The notes beneath the pieces are model-generated. The model was given only the letters and a program-made list of their open reading frames with translations, was not told the origin of the DNA and did no database searches. Shown piece by piece: positions 2 to 48,648 of a stretch of 48,648 bases of DNA. Position numbers and translations under genes: made by a program. Each line of letters opens with the position of its first letter. Position 1 is the first letter of the stretch. Origin of the DNA: Verrucomicrobiota bacterium (GTDB taxonomy: Bacteria > Verrucomicrobiota > Verrucomicrobiia > Opitutales > Seribacteraceae); the NCBI GenBank assembly GCA_028343845.1, contig JAOLZO010000018.1, forward strand, positions 1 through 48,648, in the 5' to 3' direction.

Positions 2-1357
2 ATTGGTAGTCTGGATCAGGCAGCTCTAAAAGATGCAGAGGTCATCGCCTTTCCTGGGGCAGAGGGCGCAGGCAAGTTCACCAAAGGAGGTCGGGGCGGA
101 GACGTCTATCACGTGACCACGCTCAAAGACTCGGGTCCCGGATCATTCAGGGAGGGCATCGAATCGATCGAGGGACCGCGAACCATCGTATTTGATCTCA
201 GCGGCACGATCCGGCTGAAAAAGGATATCAAGATCAAGGACGTGTCTTACCTGACCATTGCCGGGCAGACGGCACCCGACAAAGGAATCACCTTTGCGGA
301 CCGAAACATTAGGTTTGAAAACTGTAGTCATATCATCGCCCGGTATTTTCGCATCCGCCTGGGTGATGAAAACAAGTCGGATGGAACGAGCCCGGATTGC
401 ATCACGATCGAATACAGCAACCACGTCATGCTCGATCATCTTTCCTTGAGCTGGGGCATTGACGGAAACGGTGATTTCCGGGGACTCAAAAATTCGACCC
501 TCCAGTGGCTGATCTTTAGCGAAGCTCTTCACGACAGCATCCATGGAAAAGGCCCGCATGCAATGTGCACCTCCTTTCGGGACAACGCGGGGTTTGCGAC
601 CTTGCATCACAACGTCTTCGCAACCAGCCGGAACCGGCACCCTTCCACTGCAGGCGGATCCCAAGTCATGGAGTTTGCCAACAACCTGAATTACAATTGG
701 AGCGGTTGCCACAACCTATCGGGCGAGCAATACAACCTGCTCAACAATTACTACAAAGCTGGTCCCATGAAGGGAGACAGGCTTCCCATTCGCTATAAGT
801 CAAAGGCTCTGAAGCCCGTATCCCGCGGGTACTTTTTCGGGAATCACTTTGAGGGTTTGCCTGAAGAATACAATCAAGACAACTACGCGGCCATGAACTT
901 CGAATCTTCGGGGACGGACGGAAAATACAAAGGCACCACCCGGGGATTTTTCGAGGCAATAGAACGCTTTGACGCAGGCAAGTACAAGTTGACTCACATT
1001 GAAACGGCTCAAGAGGCCTACGAGTCCTGCCTCAAGCAAAGTGGTTGTTCGCTGGTGCGTGATTCCGTAGACGAACGGCTGATCGAAAGTATTCGAAACA
1101 ATGCAGGGAAAGTGATTGATTCCCAGGACGAAGTCGCAGGCTGGGATAGGTATCCATCCGTTGCGAGACCGCCTGATTTCGATACCGATCGGGACGGCAT
1201 GCCCGATGAATGGGAAAGGACGTCGGGCTCGGACCCCAATGACCCGTCCGATGGAAACCAAGATCGTAACGACGACGGCTTCACCAATCTTGAGGATTAC
1301 CTAAACGGACTGACGCATGTACCACAGTTGAATTCTCTGGATAAAAACAAACCATGA
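2..1357 (+). CDS. Pectate lyase-like secreted polysaccharide lyase (5' end outside the window)
   Basis: The reading frame is already open at base 2, and the residues AFPGAEGAGKFTKGGRGGDV precede the first in-window GTG at 113, so the true start lies upstream of the window. AFPGAEG is the typical N-terminus of the mature enzyme in pectate lyases of the PL1-like right-handed beta-helix class, which cleave polygalacturonate by beta-elimination, usually with calcium. The visible part is 451 residues. Asn-rich strands and the HHNVFATSRNRHP segment fit the beta-helix active-site region. The last 55 residues (DTDRDGMPDEWE, then DRNDDGFTNLEDYLNG) are Asp-rich calcium-binding repeats of the thrombospondin type 3 or dockerin-like kind. 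The TGA stop overlaps the ATG of the next gene (ATGA at 1354-1357), so the lyase is probably translated together with the DUF1592 gene. Family call is firm; exact substrate is inferred. Confidence 0.9.
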   Translation: MGSLDQAALKDAEVIAFPGAEGAGKFTKGGRGGDVYHVTTLKDSGPGSFREGIESIEGPRTIVFDLSGTIRLKKDIKIKDVSYLTIAGQTAPDKGITFADRNIRFENCSHIIARYFRIRLGDENKSDGTSPDCITIEYSNHVMLDHLSLSWGIDGNGDFRGLKNSTLQWLIFSEALHDSIHGKGPHAMCTSFRDNAGFATLHHNVFATSRNRHPSTAGGSQVMEFANNLNYNWSGCHNLSGEQYNLLNNYYKAGPMKGDRLPIRYKSKALKPVSRGYFFGNHFEGLPEEYNQDNYAAMNFESSGTDGKYKGTTRGFFEAIERFDAGKYKLTHIETAQEAYESCLKQSGCSLVRDSVDERLIESIRNNAGKVIDSQDEVAGWDRYPSVARPPDFDTDRDGMPDEWERTSGSDPNDPSDGNQDRNDDGFTNLEDYLNGLTHVPQLNSLDKNKP

Positions 1358-4167
1358 GTTCTTGCAAACGAAACTTATGGGTGCTCCTTATTTCCTGGTG
1401 CCTGTGGATCAATGAATCTTTGGGAAACAAAGATCTGCGAGGCATGGAGTTGTTCGAAAACCACTGCTTCGATTGTCACAACGAGGACGTTAAAAAAGGA
1501 AACGTCAACATGGCCGAGTTGTTTGACGCCGGCTCTTTTGACGGAACCCTGATGTTCGAAAACCTCATTACGGCAAAGATGCCCCCCGAGAACAAGAAGC
1601 AACCGAACGCCGAGGAGAAGCGGGCCATGCTTGATTGGTTGGCGAAGCGCCAAGCAGACCACAAGCCCGCCCCCTACCGCAGAATCAGTCGCCATGAGTT
1701 TGTCCATTCGCTCAACGACCTGCTTGGAATCAAGCTCGACCTGACCGGGGAAATCCCGGACGACCGCGGTACTTTCGATTTCGATTCCGACCGCAGGATC
1801 AAACTGACCAAGGAAATGCTCGGATCCTATTTCCAAGTCGCCGATCGAATGCTTGAGTTCGCTTTACCCACCGAGGGCTTTGCCCCGGAGCGGATTTGGG
1901 TGACCAACAAAATCAAGGACAGCCACAAGACCTACAACATATACACCCGGCCATACAAGGAGGGCATTCTTTTCTCCTGGACCCGGGCGAACAACGGAAA
2001 CAGTTATTCCTTCTTCTACGACAACTTCGATCCGCCCGTCCCGGGTTGGTACGAACTCACCTTCGATGCCATGAAGATGGGAAGCTTCCCGGAGGATGTC
2101 AGCATAGAGGTCTTCGCCGGTAAATACTATTACGCCGACGACCGCCCTCAACCTCAGCGCCTTCTCGACGTGATCTCCCTCGACAACCGGGAAATGAAGT
2201 CACATACGATCAAAGTCTTCCTCCGTCCCGGGGAGAACGTCTCGGTGCACTGTTACTCGAAGCACAACTTCCGTCAAAGAAATGGGAACCAGGGTGCCTA
2301 TATCAAGCAGTTGAAGGCACGAGGCCCGATTCTCGAACAATGGCCCCCGGCTTCATACGCAAAGGTATTTGGGAACCTGCCCATCAAGGCACCGCCCCGG
2401 GAAGCCAGAGAAGTTTCCCCCTTGCAAACGAACCTTGAGGCCTTCGGTGGGAGCGTCACCGTGAGCAGTTTCCAAAAGGGAATGGAAAAGGAAAAGATGC
2501 TGGATGGTTCCAACCGGACCTTCTGGCATACACGATTCAAACCGACCCTGGCCAAGCCGCCGCACTACGTCATAATCGAAAACCCACAGGCCAAGGAAAT
2601 CGAGGGACTCAATTATGCCACCTGGTCGGGTGGAAATGGCAACGGACAGGTCGAGGCCTATGCCATTCACTTCTCGGACAACGGAAAAGACTGGGGCAAG
2701 CCCATCCGGACCGGACCGCTCGAAATCCGCTTGGCCAACGAGCAACCCATTCTCTTCCCTGAAAAAACCACCAAGCGCTTCATCAAGTTTCTCATCAACG
2801 ACGCCCATACCTTGGACGGCCGATCCCTTGCCTCCGTCGGCAAACTCGACGTCATCACCACCTTATCCAAGGAAGCAAGCAAGTCAAAGGTTGCGGTGTC
2901 CACGCGTTCCCCCGAAGGCCTCAAGCAAGTGATCAAGCGCTTCGCCGAGCGGGCCTTTTCCTCCGACTTAAGAGAAGAGGAACTTGCTCCTTATCATCAG
3001 CCTAGCCTCGTTGCCCTCAAAGAAGGAGAGAGTTTTGTCGAAGCGGCCAAGATCGGATTGAAGGCGGTCTTGTGCTCACACCGCTTCCTCATGGCTCCGG
3101 GCGAGCATGAAAACCAATCCTACGCCCGAGCGTCTGCACTGGCCCGGACTTTCTGGCTTTCGGTGCCCGATCAAGAGAGCCTGAAAATTTCCCAAGCGGA
3201 CAAACTTACCCTCAAGGACGTTCCCGCCCAAGTCGACCGCATGATCAAGGACCCGAAAAGCAAACGCATGATCCATTCCTTCTGCAACCAGTGGCTGGAT
3301 CTACGCTCGTTCGACCAGATTGCCCCTTCCCTCAAGCTCTACCCCCTCTACAATGATCTTTTGAATCACTACCTCCCCCTCGAAACGGAAGCCTACCTCG
3401 ATCACTTGCTTCGGGATAACCTGCCCATCGGACGCTTGATCGACTCCGACTTTTCCTTCCTCAACCAACGCCTCGCTCAGCATTACGGAATACCCGGCAT
3501 ATATGGCCAGAACCTGCGCAAGGTCTCTTTCGAGCCCAAGGTTCCGCGCGGTGGTTTGCTCACCATGGGAAGCGTGCTCAAGGTAACGGCCGACGGTTTC
3601 GATACTTCTCCCATTCTGCGCGGTGCCTGGATTTCCAAGAACATCGCCGGCAACACGCTTTCACCACCCCCGGAAGACGTCGAGGTGATCGAACCTGAGC
3701 ACGGCAAAGACGCCGCAACCCTCCGGGAGCAAATCGAAGAACACAAGAAAAGCCAGGCCTGCTACGCCTGTCACAAGAGCATCGACCCATACGGGTTTGC
3801 CCTGGAGAGCTTTGATGCAACCGGGCAATGGCGTGAACAATATCGAGTCAAGAAACCCCATAGGGCGACCTTTGTCTACAGGCCAAAAGGCTATTTTGAC
3901 CTGGTCGGGAAAGTGGACCCGTCGGGGGAGATCGCCCGGGAAAAGTTCTCGGATATTTTCGGCCTGAAGAAGATCCTTCTGTCCGACCACAAGAAGATCG
4001 CATACAACTTCGTTAAAAAATTCTTCGAATACGCCAACGGCTACAAGCCAAGCCTGAAAGAGCGCCTCGACCTCTTTGCCATGATCCCCCAAGAACCCGA
4101 ACAATGCCGTATGAAGGACTTGATCACGAAGACCTCGGTCTATTCAATGCAAAGCCACTCAGAATGA
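1354..4167 (+). CDS. DUF1592-family c-type cytochrome-like protein 1, with F5/8 type C-like insert
   Basis: A 937-residue exported protein. A signal peptide-like stretch (about 5-24) precedes a PSCyt1-type haem motif CFDCH at 38-42. DUF1587 follows (about 108-172, RRISRHEFVHSLNDLLG), then a middle region, DUF1595 (about 526-580), DUF1592 (about 590-725), DUF1588 (about 731-830, PRGGLLTMGSVLKVTADG, with a second CxxCH, CYACH, at 803-807) and DUF1585 at the C-terminus. Residues about 360-502 look like a discoidin/F5-8 type C (CBM32-like) module: SSFQKG, then MLDGSNRTFWHTRF, then a SDNGKDWG segment. The family is common in Planctomycetota and Verrucomicrobiota and has no proven reaction; two CxxCH motifs suggest up to two haems in the periplasm. 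It sits between a pectate lyase and a DUF1552 gene, overlapping both by four bases, which ties this copy to pectin or another uronate polymer (inference). Confidence 0.93.
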   Translation: MSSCKRNLWVLLISWCLWINESLGNKDLRGMELFENHCFDCHNEDVKKGNVNMAELFDAGSFDGTLMFENLITAKMPPENKKQPNAEEKRAMLDWLAKRQADHKPAPYRRISRHEFVHSLNDLLGIKLDLTGEIPDDRGTFDFDSDRRIKLTKEMLGSYFQVADRMLEFALPTEGFAPERIWVTNKIKDSHKTYNIYTRPYKEGILFSWTRANNGNSYSFFYDNFDPPVPGWYELTFDAMKMGSFPEDVSIEVFAGKYYYADDRPQPQRLLDVISLDNREMKSHTIKVFLRPGENVSVHCYSKHNFRQRNGNQGAYIKQLKARGPILEQWPPASYAKVFGNLPIKAPPREAREVSPLQTNLEAFGGSVTVSSFQKGMEKEKMLDGSNRTFWHTRFKPTLAKPPHYVIIENPQAKEIEGLNYATWSGGNGNGQVEAYAIHFSDNGKDWGKPIRTGPLEIRLANEQPILFPEKTTKRFIKFLINDAHTLDGRSLASVGKLDVITTLSKEASKSKVAVSTRSPEGLKQVIKRFAERAFSSDLREEELAPYHQPSLVALKEGESFVEAAKIGLKAVLCSHRFLMAPGEHENQSYARASALARTFWLSVPDQESLKISQADKLTLKDVPAQVDRMIKDPKSKRMIHSFCNQWLDLRSFDQIAPSLKLYPLYNDLLNHYLPLETEAYLDHLLRDNLPIGRLIDSDFSFLNQRLAQHYGIPGIYGQNLRKVSFEPKVPRGGLLTMGSVLKVTADGFDTSPILRGAWISKNIAGNTLSPPPEDVEVIEPEHGKDAATLREQIEEHKKSQACYACHKSIDPYGFALESFDATGQWREQYRVKKPHRATFVYRPKGYFDLVGKVDPSGEIAREKFSDIFGLKKILLSDHKKIAYNFVKKFFEYANGYKPSLKERLDLFAMIPQEPEQCRMKDLITKTSVYSMQSHSE

Positions 4168-5396
4168 ACGCCATAAGCAGAAAAGACTTTCTCAAGGCCG
4201 GAGCCGCTCTACCCCTCGCCCTGCAATCGCTTGACCTGCGGGCCGCCGCCCGGTCCAAGCCGGCAACCCCGCCCAAGCGGATCCTTTTCATCTGCAGTTG
4301 CCTCGGTTTCTACGAGCCCTACTTTTTCCCCAAGAAACGGGGTAACCTGGAGACCTCCGACTACCTCAAGGACATGAAGACCCTAAACAAGATGACGGTC
4401 TTCAACAACCTGTATCACCCGGGCATGGACACGAGCAACCACGACTCGGAGAAATCCTTTCTCACGGGAAGCCCGAGTCCGGAATCACCCACTTTCGTGA
4501 ACGGCATTTCACTTGATCAAGTTCTGGCCCGCGAAATGGGTGGAGACACCCGCTTCCCCTTCCTCAACTTCAGTATATATGACCGTGGTTGGGGAATCTC
4601 TTGGAACGACCGTGGCTCCCCCATCCCTCCCATGCACGACGAGTCGAAGATTTTCGAAAAGCTCTTCGAGAAAGAGGATCTTCAGGCCAAGAAGCGCCAA
4701 CTTAACAATGACCAAAACATCCTCGATTGCCTGCAGAGGGACATGGCTCGACTGCGCAAAAAGGGTTCTCAGCCAGGCAAGCTCGACAGCTACAAGGCTG
4801 CCATCCAAGAACTGGAAGCCCAACTTGCCCACGAGAAGTTCTGGCTGAACACCGAGAAGCCCAAAGTGGAGAAATCCCTCAGCGAAGACCCGGAGTTCGC
4901 TTTCTCGACCAAGATCCAAAATCTTTTCGAGCTCGCCAAGCTCGCTTTCCGGACCGACTCCACCCGGGTGATCACTCTGTCCATGGACTGGATCGACGGA
5001 GCCATCACGGTGCCCGGGGCCACCGGAGGCTGGCACACCCTCTCACATCATGGAGGCAAGGCCGAAAAAATCGAAAGCTTGAGCAAGATCGAGATCGACA
5101 CCCTCAAGCACTTCAACCGCTTTCTTTTCGAGATGGACCGGATTCAGGAAGGTGACGGCACCTTGCTCGACCACACAACCGTGGTGATGGGCAGTAATTT
5201 CGGAGACGCATCCAATCACACCTGCAACAATCTTCCCATGATCGTGGCCGGGGGCGGCTATCGTCACCAAGCCCATACCGTTCTCGAGAAACCGACGCAC
5301 CTCTGCAACCTTTACCTGGAGTTGCTTCACAAGCACAACATTGATGCGGGTGCGTTCGGAAGCAGCGTAGCAGACTTGGACCTGCTGAAGAGCTGA
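4164..5396 (+). CDS. DUF1552 (HXXSHH) family protein 1
   Basis: A 410-residue protein of the DUF1552 family, the regular partner of DUF1592 proteins. The start at 4164 is chosen because its ATG overlaps the upstream TGA (ATGA) and gives an N-terminus, SRKDFLKAGAALPLAL, like a Tat-type leader; the open frame runs back to 4104 but reads through the end of the upstream gene. The second arginine of the Tat pair is replaced by lysine (RK), unlike the other four copies here. The hallmark motif is present as HTLSHH at 291-296, followed by HTCNNLPMIVAGGGYRH near the C-terminus. Alternating charged segments between about 165 and 245 look helical. The family's activity is unknown. It ends the pectate lyase operon. 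Confidence 0.92.
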   Translation: MNAISRKDFLKAGAALPLALQSLDLRAAARSKPATPPKRILFICSCLGFYEPYFFPKKRGNLETSDYLKDMKTLNKMTVFNNLYHPGMDTSNHDSEKSFLTGSPSPESPTFVNGISLDQVLAREMGGDTRFPFLNFSIYDRGWGISWNDRGSPIPPMHDESKIFEKLFEKEDLQAKKRQLNNDQNILDCLQRDMARLRKKGSQPGKLDSYKAAIQELEAQLAHEKFWLNTEKPKVEKSLSEDPEFAFSTKIQNLFELAKLAFRTDSTRVITLSMDWIDGAITVPGATGGWHTLSHHGGKAEKIESLSKIEIDTLKHFNRFLFEMDRIQEGDGTLLDHTTVVMGSNFGDASNHTCNNLPMIVAGGGYRHQAHTVLEKPTHLCNLYLELLHKHNIDAGAFGSSVADLDLLKS

Positions 5397-5443: not shown

Positions 5444-5983
5444 ATGGAACCTCCTACAAAAAAACTCATCTCAATCTTTTCTTCGGCAATTATGATGGTT
5501 GCTTTGGCTTGCCCTCTTTCAGCGGACGATAAGCCCGAACTGACCGAAGAAGTCCGAAACCGACTCGCAGCCTTGGTTGCGGCAAACGAGTACGTCGCCC
5601 TAGTCCAAATCAATGAAGGTGAGTTCACCGGAGCATGCATGGTGCACAACAAAGTCAAGGTCATGGCCCATCTCAAGGGGAAGCTAGGCACCACCGCTCT
5701 TTTCTCTTCAATCAACGCAGACGAAAACTCCCTTCCTCCGGTCATCGAGTCTCCCAAGAAAGCGTTACCAATACTGACTGCCGGCACCTACGTGCTCATC
5801 GTCAAAGGGCACGAAATCGTTCATTCGTTTCCCGGCATAAAGGTTCCTCTTTTTGGAAGAATCCTAAAACCAAAGCGGAGCTTCAACTACTTCATCAAGC
5901 ACAACGGAAAGACCCATTGCGCATGGCCCGTGGACTCCGCGGAAGCGAATTACCTCCGGAAGCTTGTAAAACAGAAGGTTTAG
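5444..5983 (+). CDS. Small secreted protein of unknown function
   Basis: A 179-residue protein with a clear signal peptide (KKLISIFSSAIMMVALACPLSA, cleavage likely before DDKPEL). The mature part begins with a helical stretch (ELTEEVRNRLAALVAANE) followed by alternating hydrophobic strands (YVALVQINEG, TYVLIVKGHEIVHSF). It has cysteines at CMVHN and THCAWP but no CxxC motif. I do not recognise the family. It follows the DUF1552 gene by 47 bases and precedes a sulfatase on the same strand, so it may belong to the same transcript. A longer ORF in another frame (from 5635) overlaps it, but that is only the open frame upstream of the sulfatase. Confidence 0.7.
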   Translation: MEPPTKKLISIFSSAIMMVALACPLSADDKPELTEEVRNRLAALVAANEYVALVQINEGEFTGACMVHNKVKVMAHLKGKLGTTALFSSINADENSLPPVIESPKKALPILTAGTYVLIVKGHEIVHSFPGIKVPLFGRILKPKRSFNYFIKHNGKTHCAWPVDSAEANYLRKLVKQKV

Positions 5984-6105
5984 GCACCTTAAGACTGCGG
6001 CGTTACCCCACAAGCATTTCGGATTTGGTCAATACGTCCCATGCCCTGAACCAGAAACTCAGAATGATGCCCCAATTGTTTGATACATCCCATTTTTTCA
6101 AAAGC

Positions 6106-7827
6106 ATGAAAACAAAACTTTATCATATTAAATTCTTTCACCTCATTGTTTTTCTCTTTGCCTTTGGTTACGCCAGTGGTTCCGACCGCCCCAATGTTCT
6201 GTTCATCGTGTCCGATGATCACGGATGGGGAGACTTGCCTTCGAACTGGAAGGAAACCGAGCTTCGTCTTCCCGTTTTGGATCAATTGGCCGCCCAAGGG
6301 GCGCGCTTTTCGAATTATCATACGGTTCCCCTTTGCGCCCCCTCGCGGGCTTGTATGTTCACTGGTCAATACTCAAGCGAGAATGGGATGTGGCGCGGCA
6401 ACAAGGGGATCAAACGCGACGTAAAAATGCTCTCCGAATATTTTTCCGAAGCAGGCTACGCCACGGGTTGCTACGGAAAATGGCATATGGGGTCAAACCC
6501 CGGAGGGCTCCCAAATGATCGAGGGTTTGACGAGTTTCGCGGATTCCTGAGCGGGACCCATGGCTATTGGGTGACCAAGCAAAGGAATAGGATTCTGCAT
6601 AACGGAGAACCCGATGATTCCGAAGGGCATACGACTGAATTGTTCACTCAATGGTCTGCAAACTTCATTCGGAAAAGCGTAGCCCAAAAAAAACCGTTTT
6701 TCTGCTACCTTGCCTACAATGCGGTACATGGCCCGATTCGCACCGACGAATCAAAACCTGCCTCCGCACCCAAAGAGTGGGTCGACAAGGCTCTTGCTCG
6801 CGGCGTCAGTTTCCTGCGTAGCGATTACGTCGCCATCCTCGAACACATGGATTACAACATAGGCAAACTCGTCGATCTAATCGACGAATTGAAAGTCTCG
6901 AACAACACCCTCGTCGTCTTCGTCAGCGACAACGGCGGATGTACGATGGAAGGCGATTTCGGAGGCAGATATCCCGGCAACAACGGTCCTTACACGGGAA
7001 GCAAGGCTACAACCTACCAGGGCGGATTGAGCGTCCCTTTCCTGATCAACTGGAAAGGCCGGGTGCAACAAGGAATGGTATCGGATGATCAAGTCATGCA
7101 CTGTGACGTATTTGCGACCTTGCTGGATGCCGCGGGAATTCCTCTTCCCGAAATGAATGGTCAAAACCCGATGCGTGGAATGTCTCTGCTTCCTCATATG
7201 AAATCCGGTGGCAAGCGACCCGTTCCAGAGCGGTCCATGATCTTCGAACTTTGGGGAAACATTGGCTTGCGGAAAGGAGACTACAAGCTCTGGGCCAATG
7301 TTGGCAGAGAATTCACTCCGGACTGGCCCGCATTGGTCAATAAGCTGAAGAACTCGGAACTTGCTCTCTTTGACCTGGGCAAAGATCCTTCCGAAAGCAA
7401 GGATCTCAGGGAGCAGCTTCCCGAAGTTTATGATAACTTGAAGCAGGAACTGATCGACCACTTTGCCAACGTCAACGCCGAGTACCCGACGAAGGAAACT
7501 CACCCGAAACTGTTTGCTCCCGAAAAGAAGGGCTCTGAAACTCCGAAAAAACAGGCGAAGGAGAGACCAAAACCATCGACGGATTCAAAGGCATCCGGTA
7601 CGCGAGGAGGCCGGAATAAGGCCTTTGCCGCGATCGATCAAAACGGGGACGGCAAGGTCACCAACGACGAGCTGGATGCCTGGTTTAAAAACAGGGCGGC
7701 GAAGAGTCCGGACAAATTCACCTACAAGCCAAGCCAGACCAAAGGAGCGCTCAAGAAACGTGACAAAAATGAAGACGGGACGCTGAGCTTGGAGGAATGG
7801 ATCAATGCATCGGAATCAAAAAAATAA
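6106..7827 (+). CDS. Secreted sulfatase with C-terminal EF-hand pair
   Basis: A 573-residue type I sulfatase that should remove sulfate esters from a glycan outside the cytoplasm. The start at 6106 is preferred because it gives a signal peptide (KLYHIKFFHLIVFLFAFGYASG) directly before RPNVLFIVSDDHGWGD; the frame is open back to 5635 but reads through the upstream gene. The formylglycine motif is CAPSR at 77-81. Other active-site elements are the metal-binding DDHG, GKWHMG, the His in YNAVHGP, SDNGG, and the Lys in the GSKATTYQGG region. After a Lys/Pro-rich linker (about 470-500) come two EF-hand loops, DQNGDGKVTNDE at 511-522 and DKNEDGTLSLEE at 553-564. The EF-hand tail is an addition to the usual sulfatase fold and may bind calcium for stability or surface attachment (inference). 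The sulfated substrate cannot be told from the sequence. Confidence 0.93.
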   Translation: MKTKLYHIKFFHLIVFLFAFGYASGSDRPNVLFIVSDDHGWGDLPSNWKETELRLPVLDQLAAQGARFSNYHTVPLCAPSRACMFTGQYSSENGMWRGNKGIKRDVKMLSEYFSEAGYATGCYGKWHMGSNPGGLPNDRGFDEFRGFLSGTHGYWVTKQRNRILHNGEPDDSEGHTTELFTQWSANFIRKSVAQKKPFFCYLAYNAVHGPIRTDESKPASAPKEWVDKALARGVSFLRSDYVAILEHMDYNIGKLVDLIDELKVSNNTLVVFVSDNGGCTMEGDFGGRYPGNNGPYTGSKATTYQGGLSVPFLINWKGRVQQGMVSDDQVMHCDVFATLLDAAGIPLPEMNGQNPMRGMSLLPHMKSGGKRPVPERSMIFELWGNIGLRKGDYKLWANVGREFTPDWPALVNKLKNSELALFDLGKDPSESKDLREQLPEVYDNLKQELIDHFANVNAEYPTKETHPKLFAPEKKGSETPKKQAKERPKPSTDSKASGTRGGRNKAFAAIDQNGDGKVTNDELDAWFKNRAAKSPDKFTYKPSQTKGALKKRDKNEDGTLSLEEWINASESKK

Positions 7828-7830: not shown

Positions 7831-8088
7831 TTGAAGTTGCTTCGAAAAGCGTTCGTCGCCGCATTTATTTTGGCTGCTTCGGCAGGATACGCCGGGGAGA
7901 CTACGTTTTGGTATGAGGACAACAACGCAAGGAAGGCCGGTGGTTATCTCGCCGACATTAATTCCATCTGTAGCTCGATTTCAAGCTTTGCGAGGATGCC
8001 GGCATTCGTCGGACTGTCCGCGACATCTGATCAGGACTCAAGAGAATCACTCATTCGAAGGGATCATGCGAAGGAGTGCGGCAGGTGA
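7831..8088 (+). pseudogene. Possible truncated small secreted protein
   Basis: A TTG-started ORF three bases after the sulfatase stop. It encodes 85 residues opening with a convincing signal peptide (RKAFVAAFILAASAGYAG, then ETTFWYEDNNARKAGGYL). The last 14 codons overlap the 3' end of the minus-strand DUF3299 gene and look like shadow coding. The signal peptide argues it is or was a real gene; the short length and convergent overlap argue that only the 5' end survives. I do not recognise the family. Confidence 0.35.
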
Positions 8089-9720: not shown

Positions 9721-9743
9721 AAGCAAAAGGGCAGAAAATTGTT

Positions 9744-11686: not shown

Positions 11687-11696
11687 CAAAAAGTGA

Positions 11697-12563: not shown

Positions 12564-12620
12564 TAAGCATTGCACTTATGCCATGTATGGTCAATTGTAT
12601 TTAGTCCTTTTAGACATGTA
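12544..12620. promoter_or_regulatory. Divergent promoter region with TTGCA half-sites
   Basis: The short gap between the minus-strand metal operon and the plus-strand FAD oxidoreductase must hold both promoters. It contains an inverted repeat TGCAA-N5-TTGCA (12548-12562) and another TTGCA at about 12570-12574, overlapping the possible starts of the lipoprotein gene. Neither a Zur box nor an ArsR box could be recognised by eye. The repeat may be an operator shared by the two divergent transcripts. Confidence 0.35.
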
Positions 12621-16649: not shown

Positions 16650-16747
16650 CCGAAACGGATATTCCAACTATCAAAGAAAAGCAACTGCCCTATTTGCGAT
16701 TTCCATTTTCAATGAGGAAGGGTAATCTTTGGAAGTTCTATTCTCTT

Positions 16748-35458: not shown

Positions 35459-35483
35459 GACAAGAAACGACGTGCCCAAAACC

Positions 35484-41077: not shown

Positions 41078-43678
41078 ATGAAGGTTTACCCTTTGGCTGT
41101 GACGTTTCTTTTGAGTTTTACCGCTGCTCTGGGGAAAGTCAGCGAGCTTCCCGAACAAGTGGACAACTTTCTCGGCACCTATTGCCTGGACTGCCATGAT
41201 GCGGACACGAGGAAAGGGGAAGTTAGCCTCGACCTTCTCGAGATCGATTGGACTGATCCCCACTCAGCCAAAACCTGGGGCAAGGTTTTTGAAGTTCTGC
41301 AAAGTGGGGAGATGCCCCCCGAAAAAAAGAAGCAACCTTCGGACAAGGAGGTTCATGGAATATCGAGCTGGCTGAGTCAGGTACTTCTTGAAAACGACAA
41401 ACCGGGCGGCACCGTCCTGCGACGCCTCGGCAAGGAGGAATACGAAAATTCCGTCTCCAGTCTCCTCAAAATCCCTTTCACCGTACCACGGAGTTTCCCC
41501 ACCGATCTCGTATCTCACGGCTTTGACAACCACGGAGAGGAGCTCGTACTTTCTCCGCCGCTCATGGCCCAATATCTTGAGATCGCCACAGCTGCGGCCG
41601 ATAGCGTTCTTCCTCCCCCGACAGGAAGGCGCAACGTCAAGAAGGATACGGTCGACATCCGGCCCGGTGAGTTCACCCTGAACTTTACCACTGGGCACAT
41701 CGTGGACGGCGTTTTGCGCATGGTCACTTCGAGCGATCCGCTGGCCCGCGGTTCGGTCTGGCCCAACCGCTTCGAAGCAAGAACGGCAGGCGTCTATCAA
41801 GTCAAGGTCGACCTCTCTTACTTCAAGCCGGTGGAAAACCACATCCCGGAGGTCCATCTGCTCTCTCGACGCTCCGACGGCAGCAACTTCGCCCGGGCCA
41901 GTGGACTAACCAAACTGGCTGAGTTCAAAGTACCAGAAGCGAAGGCCTCATCTTTCGTCGCCGAAGTCGAACTGCAACGCGGCGAGACCATCGTGATTCA
42001 TTATGAGAATGCCCCGCTTAGCAGTGACCAAGGCAAAGGTCGGTCCAAACATATCGGACGAATCTCAGAACAATTGCTCGACCTCTTCCGGGATGATCAC
42101 GAACTCGGAGCCGCCTGGATGAAAGCCGGTTACAAGCGCAGCGACCGGGGATGGAGCTGGTTGGAGAGAATCGAAGCGATCCGCGAAAAGGGAGGCTTGG
42201 ACGTCGAGGGCTTTGATCCCGAGAATCCTAAAGTAAAAAAGTTCGCTGAAGGGATGTCCCGCCAGGCGGTCAGTCTTGTCGAGACCATGTGCTGCTACCT
42301 ATTCGAAAAGGGTCCCGGTATCGACGTTCACCACATGTCCGTGACCGGGCCGATCCGACTCATCGAAGACGACGAAGAGATCGCCCGGCAAAAAATCACC
42401 GAACGATTCATGGGCAAGCGCCAAGACCGCAACGACCGCGAGTATGCCGCAGCGATTCTCAAGCCGCTCATCGATTCCGCCTTCCGCCGCCCCGCAACCG
42501 AAGAGCAGGTCGAGAAATACCTGCAAGTCGTTCTCCGGCACAAGGCAGAGGGGCATCGCTTCGAGGACGGCATCCATCTTGCGCTTCGAGCTTTGCTATG
42601 TTCACCCAACTTTCTTTACCGCGGTCATCGCCAAGGTCAGCTCGACGAGCATGACCTCGCAACAAGACTCTCCTTCTTTTTGACCAACTGCCCTCCCGAC
42701 GCTTCCCTGCAAAAAGCCGCCGCCTCAGGGAAGCTATCCAACCCCAAGGATCTCGAATTTCACACCCGTCGCCTGCTCAAACATACCCGCGTGAAGAATT
42801 TCCTCTCATCCTTCACCGGGCAATGGCTCGACCTTCGTTTGCTCCCCGAGATCATGCCCGACAGCCGTTTGCTCAATTGGAACGAGAAAGATCTGGCCGC
42901 CATCATCACGGAAACCGAACTTTTCGTAGCTGAAATCCTTCGGGAAAATCATCCGATCGAAACCTTTATTGATCCGGCTTTCACCTATCTGAACAAGCGA
43001 AACGCGAAGCTCTACGAAATCAAATTTCCAAACTCGGAAAAAATGAAACGAGTCGACCTCAAAAAGGGAGGACGCCATGGCGGAATCCTTGGTCAGGCCA
43101 GCGTGATGATGGCTACGGCCAACGGGGTCGATACCCAGCCCGTTTTGCGAGGAGTTTGGTTGCTCGAGAACGTCTTGGGCGATCCAGTCCCGGAACCGCC
43201 TCCCGACGTCCCTGCGGTGGAACCGGACACCATGGGGGCAAAGTCGATTCGGGAACTCTTGCAAAAGCACAACTCCGACGCCAGTTGCGCCGGTTGCCAT
43301 AAAAAGATCGATCCGCCCGGGTTCGCCCTCGAGAATTTCGATCCGGTCGGCCGTTGGCGCGACCACTATCCGGTCTACGAAAAAGTGGGAGACAAAGTCA
43401 TCCGCAAGGATGGCCTGCCCGTCGATGCGACCGGTACAATGAAGGACGGTACGATTCTCAACGACGTCACGGACCTCAAGCGCTACCTTGTCGAGAACGT
43501 TGATATTTTCGGGAATTGTCTCGCTGAGAAACTGCTTGTTTATGCCACCGGCCGCGATCTTGGTTTTGGTGACCGGCGGGAAGTGGAGAAAATCGTGAAA
43601 AAAGTACGACAAGACGGAAATGGATTTCAGGATCTGATCGTCGCGCTTGTTTTGAGCGAATCGTTTCGTACCAAATAA
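41078..43678 (+). CDS. DUF1592-family c-type cytochrome-like protein 4
   Basis: An 866-residue exported protein with a signal peptide (KVYPLAVTFLLSFTAALGKV) and haem motif CLDCH at 36-40 (CHDADTRKGEV). DUF1587 follows (LRRLGKEEYENSVSSLL), then a middle region with a beta-sandwich part (AGVYQVKVDLSYFKPVEN; GETIVIHYENAPL), DUF1595 (LIDSAFRRPATEEQVEKYLQ), DUF1592 (ATRLSFFLTNCPPDASLQ), DUF1588 (HGGILGQASVMMATANG, with CAGCH at 737-741) and DUF1585 (CLAEKLLVYATGRDLGF). It lies between two DUF1552 genes; the short 12-base gap upstream ties it to protein 4. Confidence 0.92.
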   Translation: MKVYPLAVTFLLSFTAALGKVSELPEQVDNFLGTYCLDCHDADTRKGEVSLDLLEIDWTDPHSAKTWGKVFEVLQSGEMPPEKKKQPSDKEVHGISSWLSQVLLENDKPGGTVLRRLGKEEYENSVSSLLKIPFTVPRSFPTDLVSHGFDNHGEELVLSPPLMAQYLEIATAAADSVLPPPTGRRNVKKDTVDIRPGEFTLNFTTGHIVDGVLRMVTSSDPLARGSVWPNRFEARTAGVYQVKVDLSYFKPVENHIPEVHLLSRRSDGSNFARASGLTKLAEFKVPEAKASSFVAEVELQRGETIVIHYENAPLSSDQGKGRSKHIGRISEQLLDLFRDDHELGAAWMKAGYKRSDRGWSWLERIEAIREKGGLDVEGFDPENPKVKKFAEGMSRQAVSLVETMCCYLFEKGPGIDVHHMSVTGPIRLIEDDEEIARQKITERFMGKRQDRNDREYAAAILKPLIDSAFRRPATEEQVEKYLQVVLRHKAEGHRFEDGIHLALRALLCSPNFLYRGHRQGQLDEHDLATRLSFFLTNCPPDASLQKAAASGKLSNPKDLEFHTRRLLKHTRVKNFLSSFTGQWLDLRLLPEIMPDSRLLNWNEKDLAAIITETELFVAEILRENHPIETFIDPAFTYLNKRNAKLYEIKFPNSEKMKRVDLKKGGRHGGILGQASVMMATANGVDTQPVLRGVWLLENVLGDPVPEPPPDVPAVEPDTMGAKSIRELLQKHNSDASCAGCHKKIDPPGFALENFDPVGRWRDHYPVYEKVGDKVIRKDGLPVDATGTMKDGTILNDVTDLKRYLVENVDIFGNCLAEKLLVYATGRDLGFGDRREVEKIVKKVRQDGNGFQDLIVALVLSESFRTK

Positions 43679-43772: not shown

Positions 43773-45065
43773 ATGCATATGAACTTCAATCGACGAACCT
43801 TTCTACGCGGGACGGGTGCTCTCATCGCCCTACCCGCCCTCGAATCCATCGGTTTCCGCCGTTTTGCATCCGCGGCCACGAAAGCATCGGTTGCCATCCC
43901 CAAACGGGCGGTCTTCATGGGGATCGGCTTCGGAGTGACCAGGCAAACTTGGTATCCCGACCAAAAAGACACGGGTGCAAAGTACCAATTGTCCGAGGGC
44001 CTTAGCCCATTGGCCAGGCACAAGAAGGATTTTACCATCGTACAGGGATGTGCCAACAACTACTCCAATGAGGCCCATTGGGGCAGTACCTTTTGGCTGA
44101 CCGGGGCAAACCGTTATTCGGTCCCCGGACAAAATATGGCCAACAGCATATCTGCGGATCAGGTCGTCGCCGAGCAACTCGGCAAGGATACACGTTTTAC
44201 ATCGATTCAACTCGATAGCTCCGATGGAAACCAATCCGGTCATGGACCTGGTGAATCTCTGGCGTGGGACAAGCGCGGTAAACCGATTGCCGGATACAAT
44301 GACCCGCTGAAAACTTTTCATAAGCTTTTTTCCGCTGAAGATTTGCCCCTCGAGCAAAGACAGGCAGCCATTGATGAAAAGAGAAGCGTATTGGATGCGG
44401 TGTTGACCGAGGCAAACCGCGTTCAGCGTGGCCTGTCCAGAAACGACAACAATAAGTTGGACGAGTACTTTCAAGGTATACGGGACATTGAAACCCGTCT
44501 CGGCAAAGATGAAGACTGGTTGGATAAGCCAAAGCCCAAGGCACCTCTCGATGAACCACCTGTCGGGCTCAAGGGACGGGAAGAAATTGAGATGATGCAC
44601 AACCTGATTGTGGCCGCATTGCAAACCGACAGCACCCGGGCACTGACATACCGCATGCCCGGTCAATCCCTGCTCAGGAGTATGGATGTGAAGCATAGTT
44701 CTCACAATGTCAGTCACTACTCTCCAGGCGAAAGGATGGATGCATCCAAGGCCCGTGACCAAATGCACAGCACTCTGCTTGCCGGGTTCATGGACAAATT
44801 AAAAGCCACCAAAGAGGCGGATGGCACCAGTCTGTTTGATCATACCTCACTCGCGTTTGGATCGAATATCAGCAGTATTCACTATCTTGTTAATTGCCCG
44901 ACCATTCTTGCGGGAGGAGGGGCCAACCTCAAACTGGGCGAGCATATGGTTCTTCCCAAGGATACCCCGCTTTGCAATGTTTGGCTGACCATGCTGCAAG
45001 GAATGGGGATCGATGCCGAGCGCCATGGTGACAGTACCGGTATCATCAAAGAACTGCAGGCGTGA
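43773..45065 (+). CDS. DUF1552 (HXXSHH) family protein 5, with variant motif
   Basis: A 430-residue protein; starts at 43773 and 43779 are both possible and both keep the Tat leader (NFNRRTFLRGTGALIALPALE). The hallmark motif reads HNVSHY at 311-316: the last His is replaced by Tyr. LQTDSTRALTYRMPG precedes it. The usual His/Asn-rich NxHNNxxLP segment is replaced by SSIHYLVNCPTILAGGG, so this copy is the most changed of the five. Its TGA overlaps the GTG of the next gene (GTGA at 45062-45065). Confidence 0.9.
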   Translation: MHMNFNRRTFLRGTGALIALPALESIGFRRFASAATKASVAIPKRAVFMGIGFGVTRQTWYPDQKDTGAKYQLSEGLSPLARHKKDFTIVQGCANNYSNEAHWGSTFWLTGANRYSVPGQNMANSISADQVVAEQLGKDTRFTSIQLDSSDGNQSGHGPGESLAWDKRGKPIAGYNDPLKTFHKLFSAEDLPLEQRQAAIDEKRSVLDAVLTEANRVQRGLSRNDNNKLDEYFQGIRDIETRLGKDEDWLDKPKPKAPLDEPPVGLKGREEIEMMHNLIVAALQTDSTRALTYRMPGQSLLRSMDVKHSSHNVSHYSPGERMDASKARDQMHSTLLAGFMDKLKATKEADGTSLFDHTSLAFGSNISSIHYLVNCPTILAGGGANLKLGEHMVLPKDTPLCNVWLTMLQGMGIDAERHGDSTGIIKELQA

Positions 45066-48000
45066 GTAAAAAGCGACCTTTCTTTTTGGCCGGGTTTACT
45101 TTGGCCATCAACACTCTTTTCGGTGCAGAACCCAAGGCCATCGTGCCGGAAAAGCATCTCGATCTGCTTGATACCTACTGCATGGATTGTCATGATGCGG
45201 ATACGCAGAAAGGAAAGGTCAACCTGGAAGACTTGCCCTTGGAGGTCGACACTCTTCAGCATGCGGAACTTTGGCAAAAAGTTCTGGACGTGTTGAATTC
45301 TGGAGAAATGCCACCGGAAAAAAAGCGCCAACCCGAGAGCGTGGCCAAGGCGGACTTTCTGGAGGATCTGGCCAAGACCATGGTGCTTGCCCGTAAAAAA
45401 CTGTCCGACTCAGCTGGACAGATCACCATGCGCCGACTCAACCGGCGGGAGTATCAAAATACGATGAAGTCCCTGACCGGGGTTAGCCTGAACGTTGATT
45501 CCCTCCCTGCTGATGGCGGATCGGGAACCTTCGATACCGTGGGGGCTTCCCAATATATTTCCAGCGATCAATTCGAGCAGTACCTGGAACTGGGTCGGAC
45601 TGCGATTGATGAGGCTTTTGCCCGGCACGCGAGCCTAGATAAAAAGGTCCTGACTTTTCGGGTGGAACCGGAAAAAACGGTTAATGTGATGAGTGCGAAT
45701 TGGATGAAGCGACTTGAGGAAAACCATCAGCGTTACCTTGGCTGGAAGGCGGGTGTCGACAAGGCTGCCTTGGCTCCAGAGAATCAGCAAGCGCTCGAAC
45801 AGATTCGCAAGAAGTACAACCTCACTGATTTGACCACTAGTATAAGGCTCTATCAAAATGCAGATCTTCTTAAGGGTGTACCCGATGCAAAGAATTTTGG
45901 ATTTAAGGATTCCAATGATGCAGAGTTCTCTTTCCGGGGTGGTTATGACCGCATGTATGCCTACCAGAAACACTATGCCGAACTTCCCCTCAGCGACCGT
46001 GGCACTTACCTGAAGCTCGGTTGGGGATTTCAACGGATTGTTATCTCACCGCCTGCGGACAAGCTAGCCCCTGGAGAGTACAAACTCAGGATACGGGCCG
46101 GGTCAGTGATAGGTTCTGATCCTAACCGCCATTACATTCAGATCGGATACCCACAGAGAAACAATGATGTTCCGGCTGGCTTTGCCGGCAAGCCAATCAG
46201 CGGACACCAGGTAAACGGAACCACTGAGAATCCCGAAATTATTGAAACGATTGTCAAAATCGGATCGGGCAATCCCAATGAGTTTGCCATTCAGGAACGC
46301 CAGCCCGAAGACCGCGATACATACAGGAAGCAATTCTACCGCATTAAGAAGGAAAATGGTTATGGGTATCCCCCAGCCGTCTGGATAGACTGGGCTGAGC
46401 TCGAAGGCCCGATCAAAGATAAACAGATAATTGAGTCATCGATCAGTCGAGTTGAGCCCGAAAAAACAATCAATCCGGCTAATGAGAAAATCATCAAAAA
46501 AGCGGAAGCAGCACAGGACCGTTTTAAACAGTGGAAAAAAGGTGTGGATGAGGCAGCCAAGTCTCCTGAAAATCAGGCGATCATTGCTGAGATTCGAAAG
46601 AAGGATCGCCTGATTGATCACCCTAATCGCTTTTACATTTTTGCCGAGCATTTCAAGGATGTTCCCAATCCCAAAGATTTCGGGTTTTTAGATTTTCAAA
46701 AAGCGGCTGCATCCGATCCTTCGAGATCCAGAAACCTTGCCTTGCACAAACACTATGCGAGCCTGCCTCATCGTGATACCGGTACCTATCTTAAACTTAC
46801 CCACGGAACCGGACGGGTAATCGTTCCACGAAAAAAGAAGGACTTGCAACCGGGCAACTACGTCGTGCGGGTTCGGGTGGGTGCAGTCAAAGGAACCCCT
46901 GCATCGCGTCGATTTATTGAAGTTGGATACCCCCAGCGGGATATTGATTCAAGGGATTGGGGATTGAAAGGTAAACCCATCGGAGTGCGCCAGGTTACTG
47001 GAACGATTGAGGCGCCGCAGATCATTGAATTCCCCATTGAGTTGCGTCCGGGCATGCCCAAGGAATTTGCGGTGCAGGAAAAACAACTTAACACTGGAAA
47101 TTTAAAAGTGCTTTGGGACGACCATAACAGGCTCGTGAAGCAGAACGGGTACGGGCATCCCCCGGCAATCTGGGTCGATTGGGTGGAACTCGAAGGGCCT
47201 ATTGATCCGAATCGACCAAAGATATGGAAGCACCGCCGTGAAGTTGAGCATTACGCCACCGCCCAAGTTAAGAAAAAATACGAGAACTACTACAAAGCTG
47301 GATATGAAGCGGGCAAAGCATTTCTCAAGGACGGAATTGCAAGACCGGCAGTAGGAGTAAAGGACAAGGAAGAGGCCAACTTCCGCATTATTCGCTACGA
47401 GAGGGAAGCTCCTTCACAATTGCGCTACCTGAATGATCCCCTGACCAAGAGCGGTTCCTTGCTCGGCGTGTTCGACCGTAACGGAAATTTAAACAGTGAG
47501 GAAATTATTGAATTAAGCCTGGATCCTTCAGGAGCAAAGAAAAAGTCAAAGCCATTGCCTATGGGCAAATATCGCTTTCGTTTCCGCATGGGGTCCGTCG
47601 AGGGCACTTCTCCGGACCGTCATTTTGCGGTGTTGGGGGCGGTAAATCAAGGAGTAGATCGGAATGTGGGTGGTGATGGCTTCAGCTTGTTGGAAACTTT
47701 TCAAATTACCGGAACTACCAATGCCCCGCAGATTTTCGAAGCCACCGTCGAATTGACCCTCAATGGTTCACGCAAGTTTTCTCTTCGCGAGAAGAGCAAC
47801 CTCAAGGCAGACACCTTGCGGGGCAAGAGGGAGATATACAAAAACGGCATGGCCGCGCCACCGGCTCTCTGGGTTGACTGGGTGGAGTGGGAAGGTCCTT
47901 TGCAGGATGCCGCTCAGGAAGGCGAGCTGGTTAGCATTTTGCAAAACAACCTGCAAGGATCCGTGGGTACGGAAGAGAAAAGAGCCCGGGCCATTTTTAA

Positions 48001-48648
48001 GCGCTTTTGCGTGGAAGCCTTTCGCCAGATTGATCCGGACCCCATGTTTATCGATCAATTGGTCGGTTTATATAATAAAAGGGTGACCGCTGGTGATTCT
48101 TTCGACGTGGCTATCCGTACGCCTCTCAGTGTCATCCTTGCCTCCCCCGGTTTTCTTTATCTCGATGAGCCGAATATTGAGGGATCCAAGCGTCCGCTCA
48201 ATGACCGGGAATTAGCGGTTCGCCTCGCTTATTTCCTTTGGAGTTCTCCCCCGGATGCTCGGCTCTTTGCATTGGCCAAGAAGAATGAACTGAGTAAGCC
48301 CGCCACTCTGCGTGCGGAAGTGGACCGCATGATTGCCGACCCCAGATCCGAGGAATTCGTGGCCGGATTTGTCCACCAGTGGTTGCATATGGAGAGGTTG
48401 GACTTCTTTCAGTTTGATACCAAATTGCACCGTGAGTTTGACGAGAGTGTTCGGGCTTCTGCCCGGAAGGAAGTATACGAATCATTTGCCCTTTTGTTGC
48501 GTGATCAGGAGGGTGGACGTCTTGGGAAATTGTTGAAGAGTGATTACGTTATGATCAATGGCCTGCTCGGTACCTATTATGGAATTGATGGAGTAAATGG
48601 TGATCATTTCCGCAAGGTTTCCTTACCCCCTGATTCTCCTAGAGGAGG
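45062..48648 (+). CDS. DUF1592-family c-type cytochrome-like protein 5, with triplicated insert (3' end outside the window)
   Basis: At least 1195 residues; the gene runs off the window. The start is a GTG at 45062 that overlaps the DUF1552 stop. A signal peptide (RPFFLAGFTLAINTLFGAE) precedes haem motif CMDCH at 40-44, then DUF1587 (MRRLNRREYQNTMKSLTG). Three copies of a beta-rich module follow at residues 200-450, 463-713 and 725-946. DUF1595 comes next (RFCVEAFRQIDPDPMFI, ILASPGFLYL), then DUF1592 (AVRLAYFLWSSPPDARLFAL), and the window ends at the start of DUF1588 (SPRGG). The module seems to be the normal middle domain of large DUF1592 proteins, here present three times. No stop or frameshift was met in the visible frame. 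Confidence 0.9.
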   Translation, partial: MSKKRPFFLAGFTLAINTLFGAEPKAIVPEKHLDLLDTYCMDCHDADTQKGKVNLEDLPLEVDTLQHAELWQKVLDVLNSGEMPPEKKRQPESVAKADFLEDLAKTMVLARKKLSDSAGQITMRRLNRREYQNTMKSLTGVSLNVDSLPADGGSGTFDTVGASQYISSDQFEQYLELGRTAIDEAFARHASLDKKVLTFRVEPEKTVNVMSANWMKRLEENHQRYLGWKAGVDKAALAPENQQALEQIRKKYNLTDLTTSIRLYQNADLLKGVPDAKNFGFKDSNDAEFSFRGGYDRMYAYQKHYAELPLSDRGTYLKLGWGFQRIVISPPADKLAPGEYKLRIRAGSVIGSDPNRHYIQIGYPQRNNDVPAGFAGKPISGHQVNGTTENPEIIETIVKIGSGNPNEFAIQERQPEDRDTYRKQFYRIKKENGYGYPPAVWIDWAELEGPIKDKQIIESSISRVEPEKTINPANEKIIKKAEAAQDRFKQWKKGVDEAAKSPENQAIIAEIRKKDRLIDHPNRFYIFAEHFKDVPNPKDFGFLDFQKAAASDPSRSRNLALHKHYASLPHRDTGTYLKLTHGTGRVIVPRKKKDLQPGNYVVRVRVGAVKGTPASRRFIEVGYPQRDIDSRDWGLKGKPIGVRQVTGTIEAPQIIEFPIELRPGMPKEFAVQEKQLNTGNLKVLWDDHNRLVKQNGYGHPPAIWVDWVELEGPIDPNRPKIWKHRREVEHYATAQVKKKYENYYKAGYEAGKAFLKDGIARPAVGVKDKEEANFRIIRYEREAPSQLRYLNDPLTKSGSLLGVFDRNGNLNSEEIIELSLDPSGAKKKSKPLPMGKYRFRFRMGSVEGTSPDRHFAVLGAVNQGVDRNVGGDGFSLLETFQITGTTNAPQIFEATVELTLNGSRKFSLREKSNLKADTLRGKREIYKNGMAAPPALWVDWVEWEGPLQDAAQEGELVSILQNNLQGSVGTEEKRARAIFKRFCVEAFRQIDPDPMFIDQLVGLYNKRVTAGDSFDVAIRTPLSVILASPGFLYLDEPNIEGSKRPLNDRELAVRLAYFLWSSPPDARLFALAKKNELSKPATLRAEVDRMIADPRSEEFVAGFVHQWLHMERLDFFQFDTKLHREFDESVRASARKEVYESFALLLRDQEGGRLGKLLKSDYVMINGLLGTYYGIDGVNGDHFRKVSLPPDSPRG
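45659..46411 (+). repeat. Module repeat 1 in DUF1592 protein 5
   Basis: 251 codons beginning RVEPEKTVN and ending WIDWAELEGP. Landmarks are GVDKAALAPENQQ, KHYAELPLSDRGTYLKL, APGEYKLRIRAGSV and IQIGYPQR. Exactly the same length as repeat 2. Confidence 0.8.
46448..47200 (+). repeat. Module repeat 2 in DUF1592 protein 5
   Basis: 251 codons beginning RVEPEKTIN and ending WVDWVELEGP. Landmarks match repeat 1 in order: GVDEAAKSPENQA, KHYASLPHRDTGTYLKL, QPGNYVVRVRVGAV, IEVGYPQR. Confidence 0.8.
47234..47899 (+). repeat. Module repeat 3 in DUF1592 protein 5 (shorter, diverged)
   Basis: 222 codons ending WVDWVEWEGP. The RVEPEK opening and the KHYA segment are lost, but PMGKYRFRFRMGSVEGTSPDRHF and the ETFQITGTTNAPQIFE part align with the second half of repeats 1 and 2. 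Confidence 0.7.

Follow-up and report, generated by a model that had tools for sequence, protein, structure and literature searches.

The PSCyt3 and PSD genes of Verrucomicrobia and Planctomycetes are reportedly credited to Studholme 2004. Here we analyse a stretch of 48,648 bases (hereafter the window), the complete contig C18 (JAOLZO010000018.1) of a Verrucomicrobiota genome, in which five genes of this kind, encoding DUF1592 (PSD4) proteins, are each paired with a gene for a DUF1552 protein. He et al. 2017 described PSCyt3/PSD genes that adjoin an unknown gene family and have sulfatase and pectin-lyase-like genes in the vicinity; both families, the pairing and the proximity to such enzymes are thus already on record (PMC5615132). 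For the sister families DUF1549 and DUF1553 (PSCyt2-PSD1), a further study counts 41 copies of each domain in Rhodopirellula baltica (PMC2754498). Studies of the redox protein Cbp2D report that Cellvibrio needs it for growth on insoluble cellulose (PMC12542752) and map among its domains DUF1587 and X132, the second to carry CxxCH (PMC8981238). A straw-degrading metasecretome contained proteins with carbohydrate-binding module (CBM) family 2 whose best hit was a Cellvibrio protein named DUF1592 (PMC6004670).

To these descriptions we add a fold prediction for DUF1552, the kinship of two paired systems, evidence of co-inheritance, a variable insert slot, a bridge to Cbp2D through a Pseudoalteromonas protein, and neighbourhood statistics. 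Within the literature covered, mostly outside subscription journals, no paper was found that links X183/X132 with DUF1592, DUF1588, PSCyt or DUF1552, and the DUF1501 papers, covered in part, yielded none linking DUF1501 with the term 'alkaline phosphatase superfamily'. We propose, at a probability of about 0.45, that the two genes of a pair specify a redox unit outside the cytoplasm, made up of a cytochrome and a metal-holding DUF1552 protein. Families paired in this way have many members in this group, and the predicted DUF1552 fold, the kinship of the two systems and the bridge to the genetically tested Cbp2D lead to concrete questions about metal, partner and substrate.

The gene pairs and their inheritance

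Open reading frames for all five pairs were found, on the + strand, where the original prediction had placed them. Pfam recognised both families in every pair, all five partners matching DUF1552 (HXXSHH), and in the four complete DUF1592 copies placed PSD4/DUF1592 together with PSD3, PSD5, PSCyt3 and PSD2 in a single protein. The pair 1 scores for PSD2 (24.1 bits, cut-off 25.8) and PSCyt1 (19.7, cut-off 22) fell short. The DUF1592 gene of pair 1 (1354-4167) encodes the motifs CFDCH and CYACH and carries an F5/8 type C (discoidin-like) module at 2455-2814 (residues 368-487, Pfam E 9.6e-12); its DUF1552 partner is listed at 4104-5396, with the likely true start at 4164 (MNAISRKDFLK), from which it would overlap the end of the DUF1592 gene by 4 bases. 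Pair 2 consists of a DUF1592 gene at 17737-20844 (CMDCH and CASCH), with a Golvesin_C module at 18520-18921 (residues 262-395, Pfam E 1.3e-20), and a DUF1552 gene at 20841-22100 that overlaps it by 4 bases. Both proteins of pair 3 were modelled, namely the DUF1592 protein at 32885-35458 (CVACH and CISCH), whose insert at 33812-34144 (model residues about 310-420) is predicted to be a CBM6-like beta-sandwich, and the DUF1552 protein at 35421-36803, likely to start at 35484. In the last two pairs the DUF1552 gene comes first, at 39779-41065 followed by a DUF1592 gene at 41078-43678 (CLDCH and CAGCH) in pair 4, and at 43773-45065 followed by 45062-48646 (CMDCH) in pair 5, where the DUF1592 copy has an enlarged insert of 794 residues and is truncated at its 3' end by the contig end. 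The order across pairs 4 and 5 is thus 1552-1592-1552-1592, and no enzyme gene separates them.

As had been claimed from the sequence, an N-terminal CxxCH is present in all five DUF1592 copies and a second one in all four complete copies. The Tat-type (twin-arginine translocation) leaders ascribed to the DUF1552 partners were seen in four of the five, with twin arginines (RR) near the N-terminus that read FNRRTFLRG in both pairs 4 and 5, while pair 1 has SRKDFLK. The predicted leader is supported by RR in 89/90 aligned DUF1552 rows, the call being made on the motif only, without a signal-peptide program.

The two genes form a near-obligate pair. Across the 15 genomes with matches, 95/106 PSD4 matches lay within 3.5 kb of a DUF1552 gene, 94 of them on the same strand and in either order (59 and 35), and 9/102 DUF1552 matches were unpaired, one of 103 having been excluded from this tally as below cut-off; such pairing exceeds what chance would give. 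Among foreign loci, DUF1552 stood within 600 bases in 42 of 60 DUF1592 genes having at least 2.5 kb of flank on both sides, some DUF1552 genes having been missed by gene calling. The pair is also an inherited cassette whose partners are passed on together: distances between DUF1592 proteins correlate with those between their DUF1552 partners (Mantel r 0.90, 17 source-genome pairs), and because this holds within one genome, species history cannot be its cause. The correlation falls to 0.71 (C-terminal core) without the two most divergent source-genome pairs, and reaches 0.91 over 67 foreign pairs, to which species history can contribute. Gene order was rejected as a phylogenetic marker, with DUF1592 first in 10/17 source-genome pairs and distances alike for pairs of the same and of different order.

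The source genome holds 23 PSD4 and 22 DUF1552 matches, compared with 1-10 and 1-11 in 12 congeners (G001-G012). It is estimated to be 64% complete and yet exceeds every one of them in PSD4 matches, an observation that points to a lineage-specific expansion.

The DUF1592 and DUF1552 proteins and their relatives

The DUF1592 alignment comprises 94 rows, four from the window and 90 from 80 loci, taken from 100 locus frames of which 95 passed 80% coverage and five more were removed by hand; the DUF1552 alignment takes 85/89 locus frames, and both are thus biased to complete genes. Exactly two CxxCH motifs, both at conserved columns, were found in 93/94 DUF1592 homologues, and two in 18 of the 23 source-genome DUF1592 genes, the remaining five being truncated at contig ends. 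These motifs favour the proposed c-type cytochrome character, and the source genome encodes a cytochrome c assembly protein and TatC. Between PSD3 and PSD5 the protein has a slot that spans 170-431 residues in the aligned set. Pfam searches of 95 insert regions and 15 full-length source-genome proteins recovered CBM60 (four), Golvesin_C (three), Laminin_G_3 (two), PA14 (one) and F5/8 type C (one), so that, by their domain assignments, carbohydrate-binding-like modules swap in one variable slot. The pair 3 insert has no Pfam family; its Foldseek matches include CBM6 (5fui, probability 1.00, TMt 0.43, E 3.6e-3), the location of this match having been deduced from its length and the strands of the model (mean predicted local distance difference test, pLDDT, 82). 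The translation of the pair 5 insert, about 800 residues long, reads as repeated blocks of KHYAxLP...GTYLKL...GYPQR, as if a module had been duplicated in place.

For DUF1552, an alkaline-phosphatase/sulfatase fold is predicted. The pair 3 model (pLDDT 88.1, predicted TM-score 0.87) gave 11 PDB matches at E<=0.001, comprising seven sulfatase chains, one entry titled alkaline-phosphatase superfamily, two LtaP and one glycerophosphoethanolamine phosphodiesterase, with 1p49 the best (E 1.2e-6). Profile comparison leads to the same fold by another route, from DUF1552 to DUF1501 (probability 97.7, E 1.7e-12, 309 columns) and from DUF1501 to sulfatases (probability 95.4, E 1.8e-8), with 3.8 for an unrelated control, in agreement with the fold search of the model. 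A viral fold library gave no match to DUF1552 at E<=0.001, its best row being a phage DUF1501 protein (E 6.4e-3), and PDB sequence searches with five-sequence DUF1552 and DUF1592 profiles returned nothing relevant. DUF1552 was rejected as an active S1 sulfatase: the formylglycine motif CxPxR/SxPxR is absent from the nucleophile helix (GHxxxxxxLTG) in the 90 aligned rows, and the 12 that contain such a string have it at offsets 32-41, 163, 169 or 251, none near residue 94 (numbering of the frame at 35484-36800).

Conserved residues of DUF1552 may instead form a metal site. His310, His314, His378, Asp124, Asp282 and Glu235 are present in 90/90 aligned rows, and His94 and His400 in 83. Among 21 source-genome copies, most of them outside the aligned set, His310 and His314 are retained in all 21, Asp124 and His94 in each of the 20 long enough to include them, and His378 in 17, the other four having a histidine one residue earlier. 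Four plasmid-borne copies, three of them proteobacterial, keep His310, His314, His378 and Asp124. Four divergent source-genome copies (L082:6662-8065, L083:6707-8104, L092:1709-3028 and L082:1-801), which combine HxxGH in place of HxxSH with the shifted His378, are possibly a separate subfamily.

In the mechanism that we envisage, the leadered two-haem DUF1592 protein would dock the unit on its substrate, often a glycan, through the swappable insert, and its haems would relay electrons. The histidine-rich pocket of DUF1552 (His310, His314, His378) would hold a metal, and substrate oxidation would take place there. Electrons could flow from the substrate to the respiratory chain or, as in cellobiose dehydrogenase with a lytic polysaccharide monooxygenase (LPMO), from a donor to the metal site. 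We infer the cofactors, the interaction between partners, the substrate and the direction of electron flow.

A second paired system, DUF1549/DUF1553 with DUF1501, is also abundant in the source genome (21 PSD1 and 26 DUF1501 matches), and its PSD1 proteins contain two CxxCH motifs in 14/16 cases and one in 2/16. The N-terminal cytochromes of PSD1 and DUF1592 proteins are homologous (probability 97.7; 99.1 for the cytochrome alone). For the cores the evidence is suggestive of kinship, with two parts of DUF1592 matching PSCyt2/PSD1 in the same order (probabilities 48.6 and 48.3, E 1.8e-4) and the whole core reaching 38.5, against 0.1 for a reversed control and 0.2-0.6 for unrelated profiles. Taken together, these profile matches suggest that the two systems are probably one machine in two versions.

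Relatives outside the group come from plasmid records, 16 of which had a DUF1592 match; in all five inspected, one a planctomycete, DUF1552 directly follows DUF1592 (by Pfam in four and by a hidden Markov model, HMM, for Novosphingobium). In a Pseudoalteromonas DUF1592 protein of 2157 residues the PSD core is fused to three starch-binding modules of family CBM26, a cytochrome and a glucose/sorbosone dehydrogenase domain, and DUF1552 adjoins it. A PDB search with the cytochrome of this protein hit 8q1v (E 2.5e-8) as well as 7b21 (E 1.8e-7), which is X183 from Cbp2D. The DUF1592 protein of Sphingobium herbicidovorans is shorter, without the insert and the first cytochrome; after its gene come those for DUF1552, cytochrome c' and cytochrome b561 and, at a greater distance, oxygenase-type genes, while the annotation of this stretch contains no glycan enzyme. 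Since the insert and first cytochrome are missing there, the constant unit, as read from these genes, is the PSD core with PSCyt3 plus DUF1552, and the insert and first cytochrome are additions. The redox context that had been predicted gains support from the glucose/sorbosone dehydrogenase fusion and the adjoining cytochromes c' and b561, and the link to carbohydrates from the insert modules and the kinship with Cbp2D. Like redox proteins of the Cbp2D type, the window DUF1592 proteins have a DUF1587 region and, after it, another domain with CxxCH, and by analogy with the published domain map we infer that the PSD core is equivalent to X132 (PMC8981238). On the Planctomyces SH-PL62 record (L158:3209-8659) two genes share the domains of the DUF1592 protein, one encoding PSCyt1-DUF1587 and the other DUF1592-PSCyt3; the next genes are those for DUF1552 and a 3-keto-disaccharide hydrolase.

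A wider and rather doubtful extension of the proposal would make the two systems branches of a single redox machine outside the cytoplasm. In it, an alkaline-phosphatase/sulfatase fold would have turned into a histidine-ligated metal oxidoreductase working with a substrate-docked multi-haem cytochrome, and Cbp2D would be a proteobacterial branch. If true, it would to our knowledge be the first redox enzyme of this fold.

Several points count against the redox proposal. The enzymes that we know of with an alkaline-phosphatase fold are hydrolases or transferases, none of them redox, and we know of no reaction for any member of the DUF1592 or DUF1552 families. TM-scores of the DUF1552 model to phosphatase-fold entries are no higher than 0.3-0.44, a likeness at the level of the fold only, and the direct profile comparison with sulfatases is weak (probability 41, E 2.7e-4, 40 columns). 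Other candidate metal ligands vary among the 21 source-genome copies (His400 in 12, Asp282 in 15, Glu235 in 18), and His94 and His400 are missing from some plasmid copies. On the DUF1592 side, the modelled core had no PDB fold match at E<=0.001 in Foldseek, rows for PI3K in that search being dismissed at a TM-score of about 0.1, and His726, constant in all 94 rows, is an alanine in Pseudoalteromonas. The methionine of an MPP motif, a likely haem ligand, is found in 94/94 rows, a count that is partly circular because the pattern used to fetch loci itself contained MPP; it is present in 10/10 rows at places that the pattern had not found and in 19/23 source-genome genes, and absent from one full-length divergent copy. 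In PDB sequence searches the DUF1592 alignment profile and the pair 3 cytochrome both missed 7b21 at E<=1, so the link from the window cytochromes to X183 of Cbp2D depends on one Pseudoalteromonas protein.

Neighbouring genes and rival explanations

Three of the five pairs have enzymes of their own nearby. At the start of the contig, a gene at 2-1357 (+) that has lost its 5' end, and with it the leader region, overlaps the start of pair 1 by four bases at its stop; its best PDB sequence match is the pectate lyase 9buj (E 1.8e-45), NCBIfam PelZ scoring far under its cut-off. An EF-hand sulfatase with the motif CAPSR follows pair 1 at 5635-7827 (+). The listed start of this frame lies inside another plausible exported-protein gene (5444-5983), and the real start is probably internal, further downstream. 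A SASA-type carbohydrate esterase (16694-17539, +, Pfam E 1e-22) stands upstream of pair 2 and two enolase-superfamily proteins downstream of it, the first (MR_MLE_C, 22128-23507, +) with what reads as a Sec-like leader and the second (23507-24784, +) galactonate dehydratase-like, below NCBIfam cut-offs, with a Tat-type leader, NRRNFLK. The second is a sugar-acid dehydratase-like enzyme that is seemingly exported. After pair 3 comes a double sulfatase of 938 residues (36890-39706, +), whose two domains both keep CxPSR (CVPSR and CGPSR).

The lyase, dehydratase-like and double-sulfatase assignments of the original prediction stand, and its statement that each pair lies beside a different glycan enzyme is true of the first three pairs; up to the contig end, no such enzyme belongs to pair 4 or pair 5. 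Elsewhere in the window, a minus-strand group unrelated to the pairs (8047-12575) encodes a DUF3299 protein, a MacB/FtsX permease, one more protein and a frame that reads as ATP-binding-cassette ATPase-like. A protein of 911 residues (28130-30865) has neither a Pfam family nor a PDB sequence match, positions 32146-32814 gave no match in a PDB sequence search, and a tRNA search of the window found none.

In the source genome sulfatases are strongly enriched near the pairs, accounting for 26/104 genes within 5 kb compared with 8/163 control genes (Fisher 2.6e-6), although both gene sets come from length-based calling and are clustered rather than independent. By pair unit (elements joined within 3.5 kb; the window supplies three of the 21), 17/21 had a sulfatase within 5 kb where 26.7% was expected (P 3e-7). 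The enrichment did not recur in the congener G010 (4/12 units, 22.4% expected, P 0.27) or in G018 from another family of the order (3/10, 32.1% expected, P 0.67), the sizes of these two genomes being rounded. Sulfatase matches of 87, 81 and 125 entered these calculations as 83, 78 and 119 after split pieces were joined and rows below cut-off dropped. One of 164 control genes was dropped (a giant frame in L096), the control contigs L097, L098 and L115 look masked, and another, L108, ends in a DUF1592 fragment. The giant frame itself (L096:643-19998) stays open for over 6,400 codons close to the beginning of contig C2 of the source genome.

Foreign neighbours, a random 118 of 277 genes within 2 kb (far set 147/157; genes above 1500 residues excluded), were tallied for the 25 commonest families of each set. 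The commonest were DUF1501 (six), AhpC/TSA (five), redoxin (four) and two leucine-rich-repeat families (four each). The sulfatase-modifying-factor-like FGE-sulfatase was found three times and, of glycan-type families, 3-keto-disaccharide hydrolase and Laminin_G_3 twice each; sulfatase was not among the families found at least twice. An HMM built on the window sulfatases had matches at E<=1e-20 in 11/80 loci besides the window. Sulfatase enrichment is thus strong in the source genome but not a family rule, and glycan-enzyme enrichment as a general property was rejected. These statistics caution against reading function from the adjacent enzyme in a single genome.

They bear directly on the model put forward in the original prediction, which sees the pairs as modules of a system in the periplasm, each processing the fragments released by the adjacent glycan enzyme. 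The operon-like placement of pairs 1-3 beside lyase, dehydratase-like proteins and sulfatase agrees with it, as does the source-genome enrichment; the general rule failed its own proposed test in G010, G018 and the foreign neighbours, two pairs of the window lack an enzyme of their own, and the Sphingobium pairs sit among non-glycan genes, all of which makes this model very improbable. Catalysis may also not be redox at all. In this account, which we consider unlikely, DUF1552 would be a member of the alkaline-phosphatase superfamily that hydrolyses or transfers esters at an unusual metal site, with DUF1592 docking, sensing through haem or anchoring. The predicted fold and the kinship with DUF1501, which in turn leads to sulfatases, are what such an enzyme would have, and three proteobacterial copies carry E, D and E at residue 364, aligned to an invariant sulfatase aspartate that we take to be a metal ligand. 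The same position is mostly N (52) or G (27) in the 90 aligned DUF1552 rows, however, the formylglycine motif is not in place, and co-inheritance with a two-haem protein among redox neighbours would be hard to account for.

Two further possibilities keep the redox chemistry and assign it differently. The pair might act in a 3-keto-glycoside pathway, oxidising sugars at C3 as LacABC does, with neighbouring PF06439 proteins hydrolysing the 3-keto product. LacABC with DUF1080 is a described pattern (PMC9007349), a 3-keto-disaccharide hydrolase directly follows DUF1552 in Planctomyces SH-PL62, and such hydrolases make up 6/104 source-genome neighbours while falling outside the 25 commonest families of either control. 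The resulting Fisher P is 0.06 at a control upper bound of 2/163, only 2/118 foreign neighbours belong to the family, and no dehydrogenase of the glucose-methanol-choline (GMC) type was found by Pfam among the scanned window proteins or annotated in two Sphingobium stretches; we hold this pathway to be unlikely. Alternatively, the two-haem protein could do nothing but feed another oxidative enzyme such as an LPMO, leaving DUF1552 as a structural subunit or pseudoenzyme. X183 of Cbp2D by itself can donate electrons to bacterial LPMOs (PMC8981238), and DUF1552 is without the sulfatase nucleophile; yet no LPMO family matched any scanned window gene in Pfam, and two histidines persist in every DUF1552 copy examined, unlike what a pure scaffold would show, so that pure electron delivery seems improbable.

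Comparison with known systems

The S1 sulfatases and their alkaline-phosphatase superfamily share with DUF1552 its predicted fold; DUF1552 differs in having no formylglycine cysteine, a changed residue at the aligned metal-ligand position, and conserved histidines instead. With the lactose 3-dehydrogenase LacABC and its DUF1080 hydrolases, the pairs would have periplasmic sugar oxidation and PF06439 neighbours in common, whereas the FAD (flavin adenine dinucleotide) dehydrogenase subunit of GMC type that LacABC uses was not found among the scanned window proteins, and the parts are different.

Cbp2D of Cellvibrio japonicus and TERTU_2913/3803 of Teredinibacter, which are X183-X132 redox proteins, resemble the DUF1592 proteins in joining a c-type cytochrome to carbohydrate-binding modules, and Cbp2D also shares DUF1587 and another domain with CxxCH. 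The proposed partner of Cbp2D is Cbp2E, a protein of YceI type, and the window cytochromes differ in lacking a direct match to X183. The DUF1549/DUF1553 system has a homologous N-terminal cytochrome, a partner (DUF1501) homologous to DUF1552 on which RR leaders are visible, and a weakly similar core, although its members are separate Pfam families.

The PSCyt3/PSD cassettes of Verrucomicrobia and Planctomycetes, in the accessible part of their description, have the same domains, the same gene pairing, nearby sulfatases and pectin-lyase-like genes and fused carbohydrate-binding modules. That part predicts a periplasmic or cytoplasmic location and gives neither fold nor mechanism (PMC5615132). 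Compared with its 12 congeners, the source genome is unusually rich in PSD4 matches.

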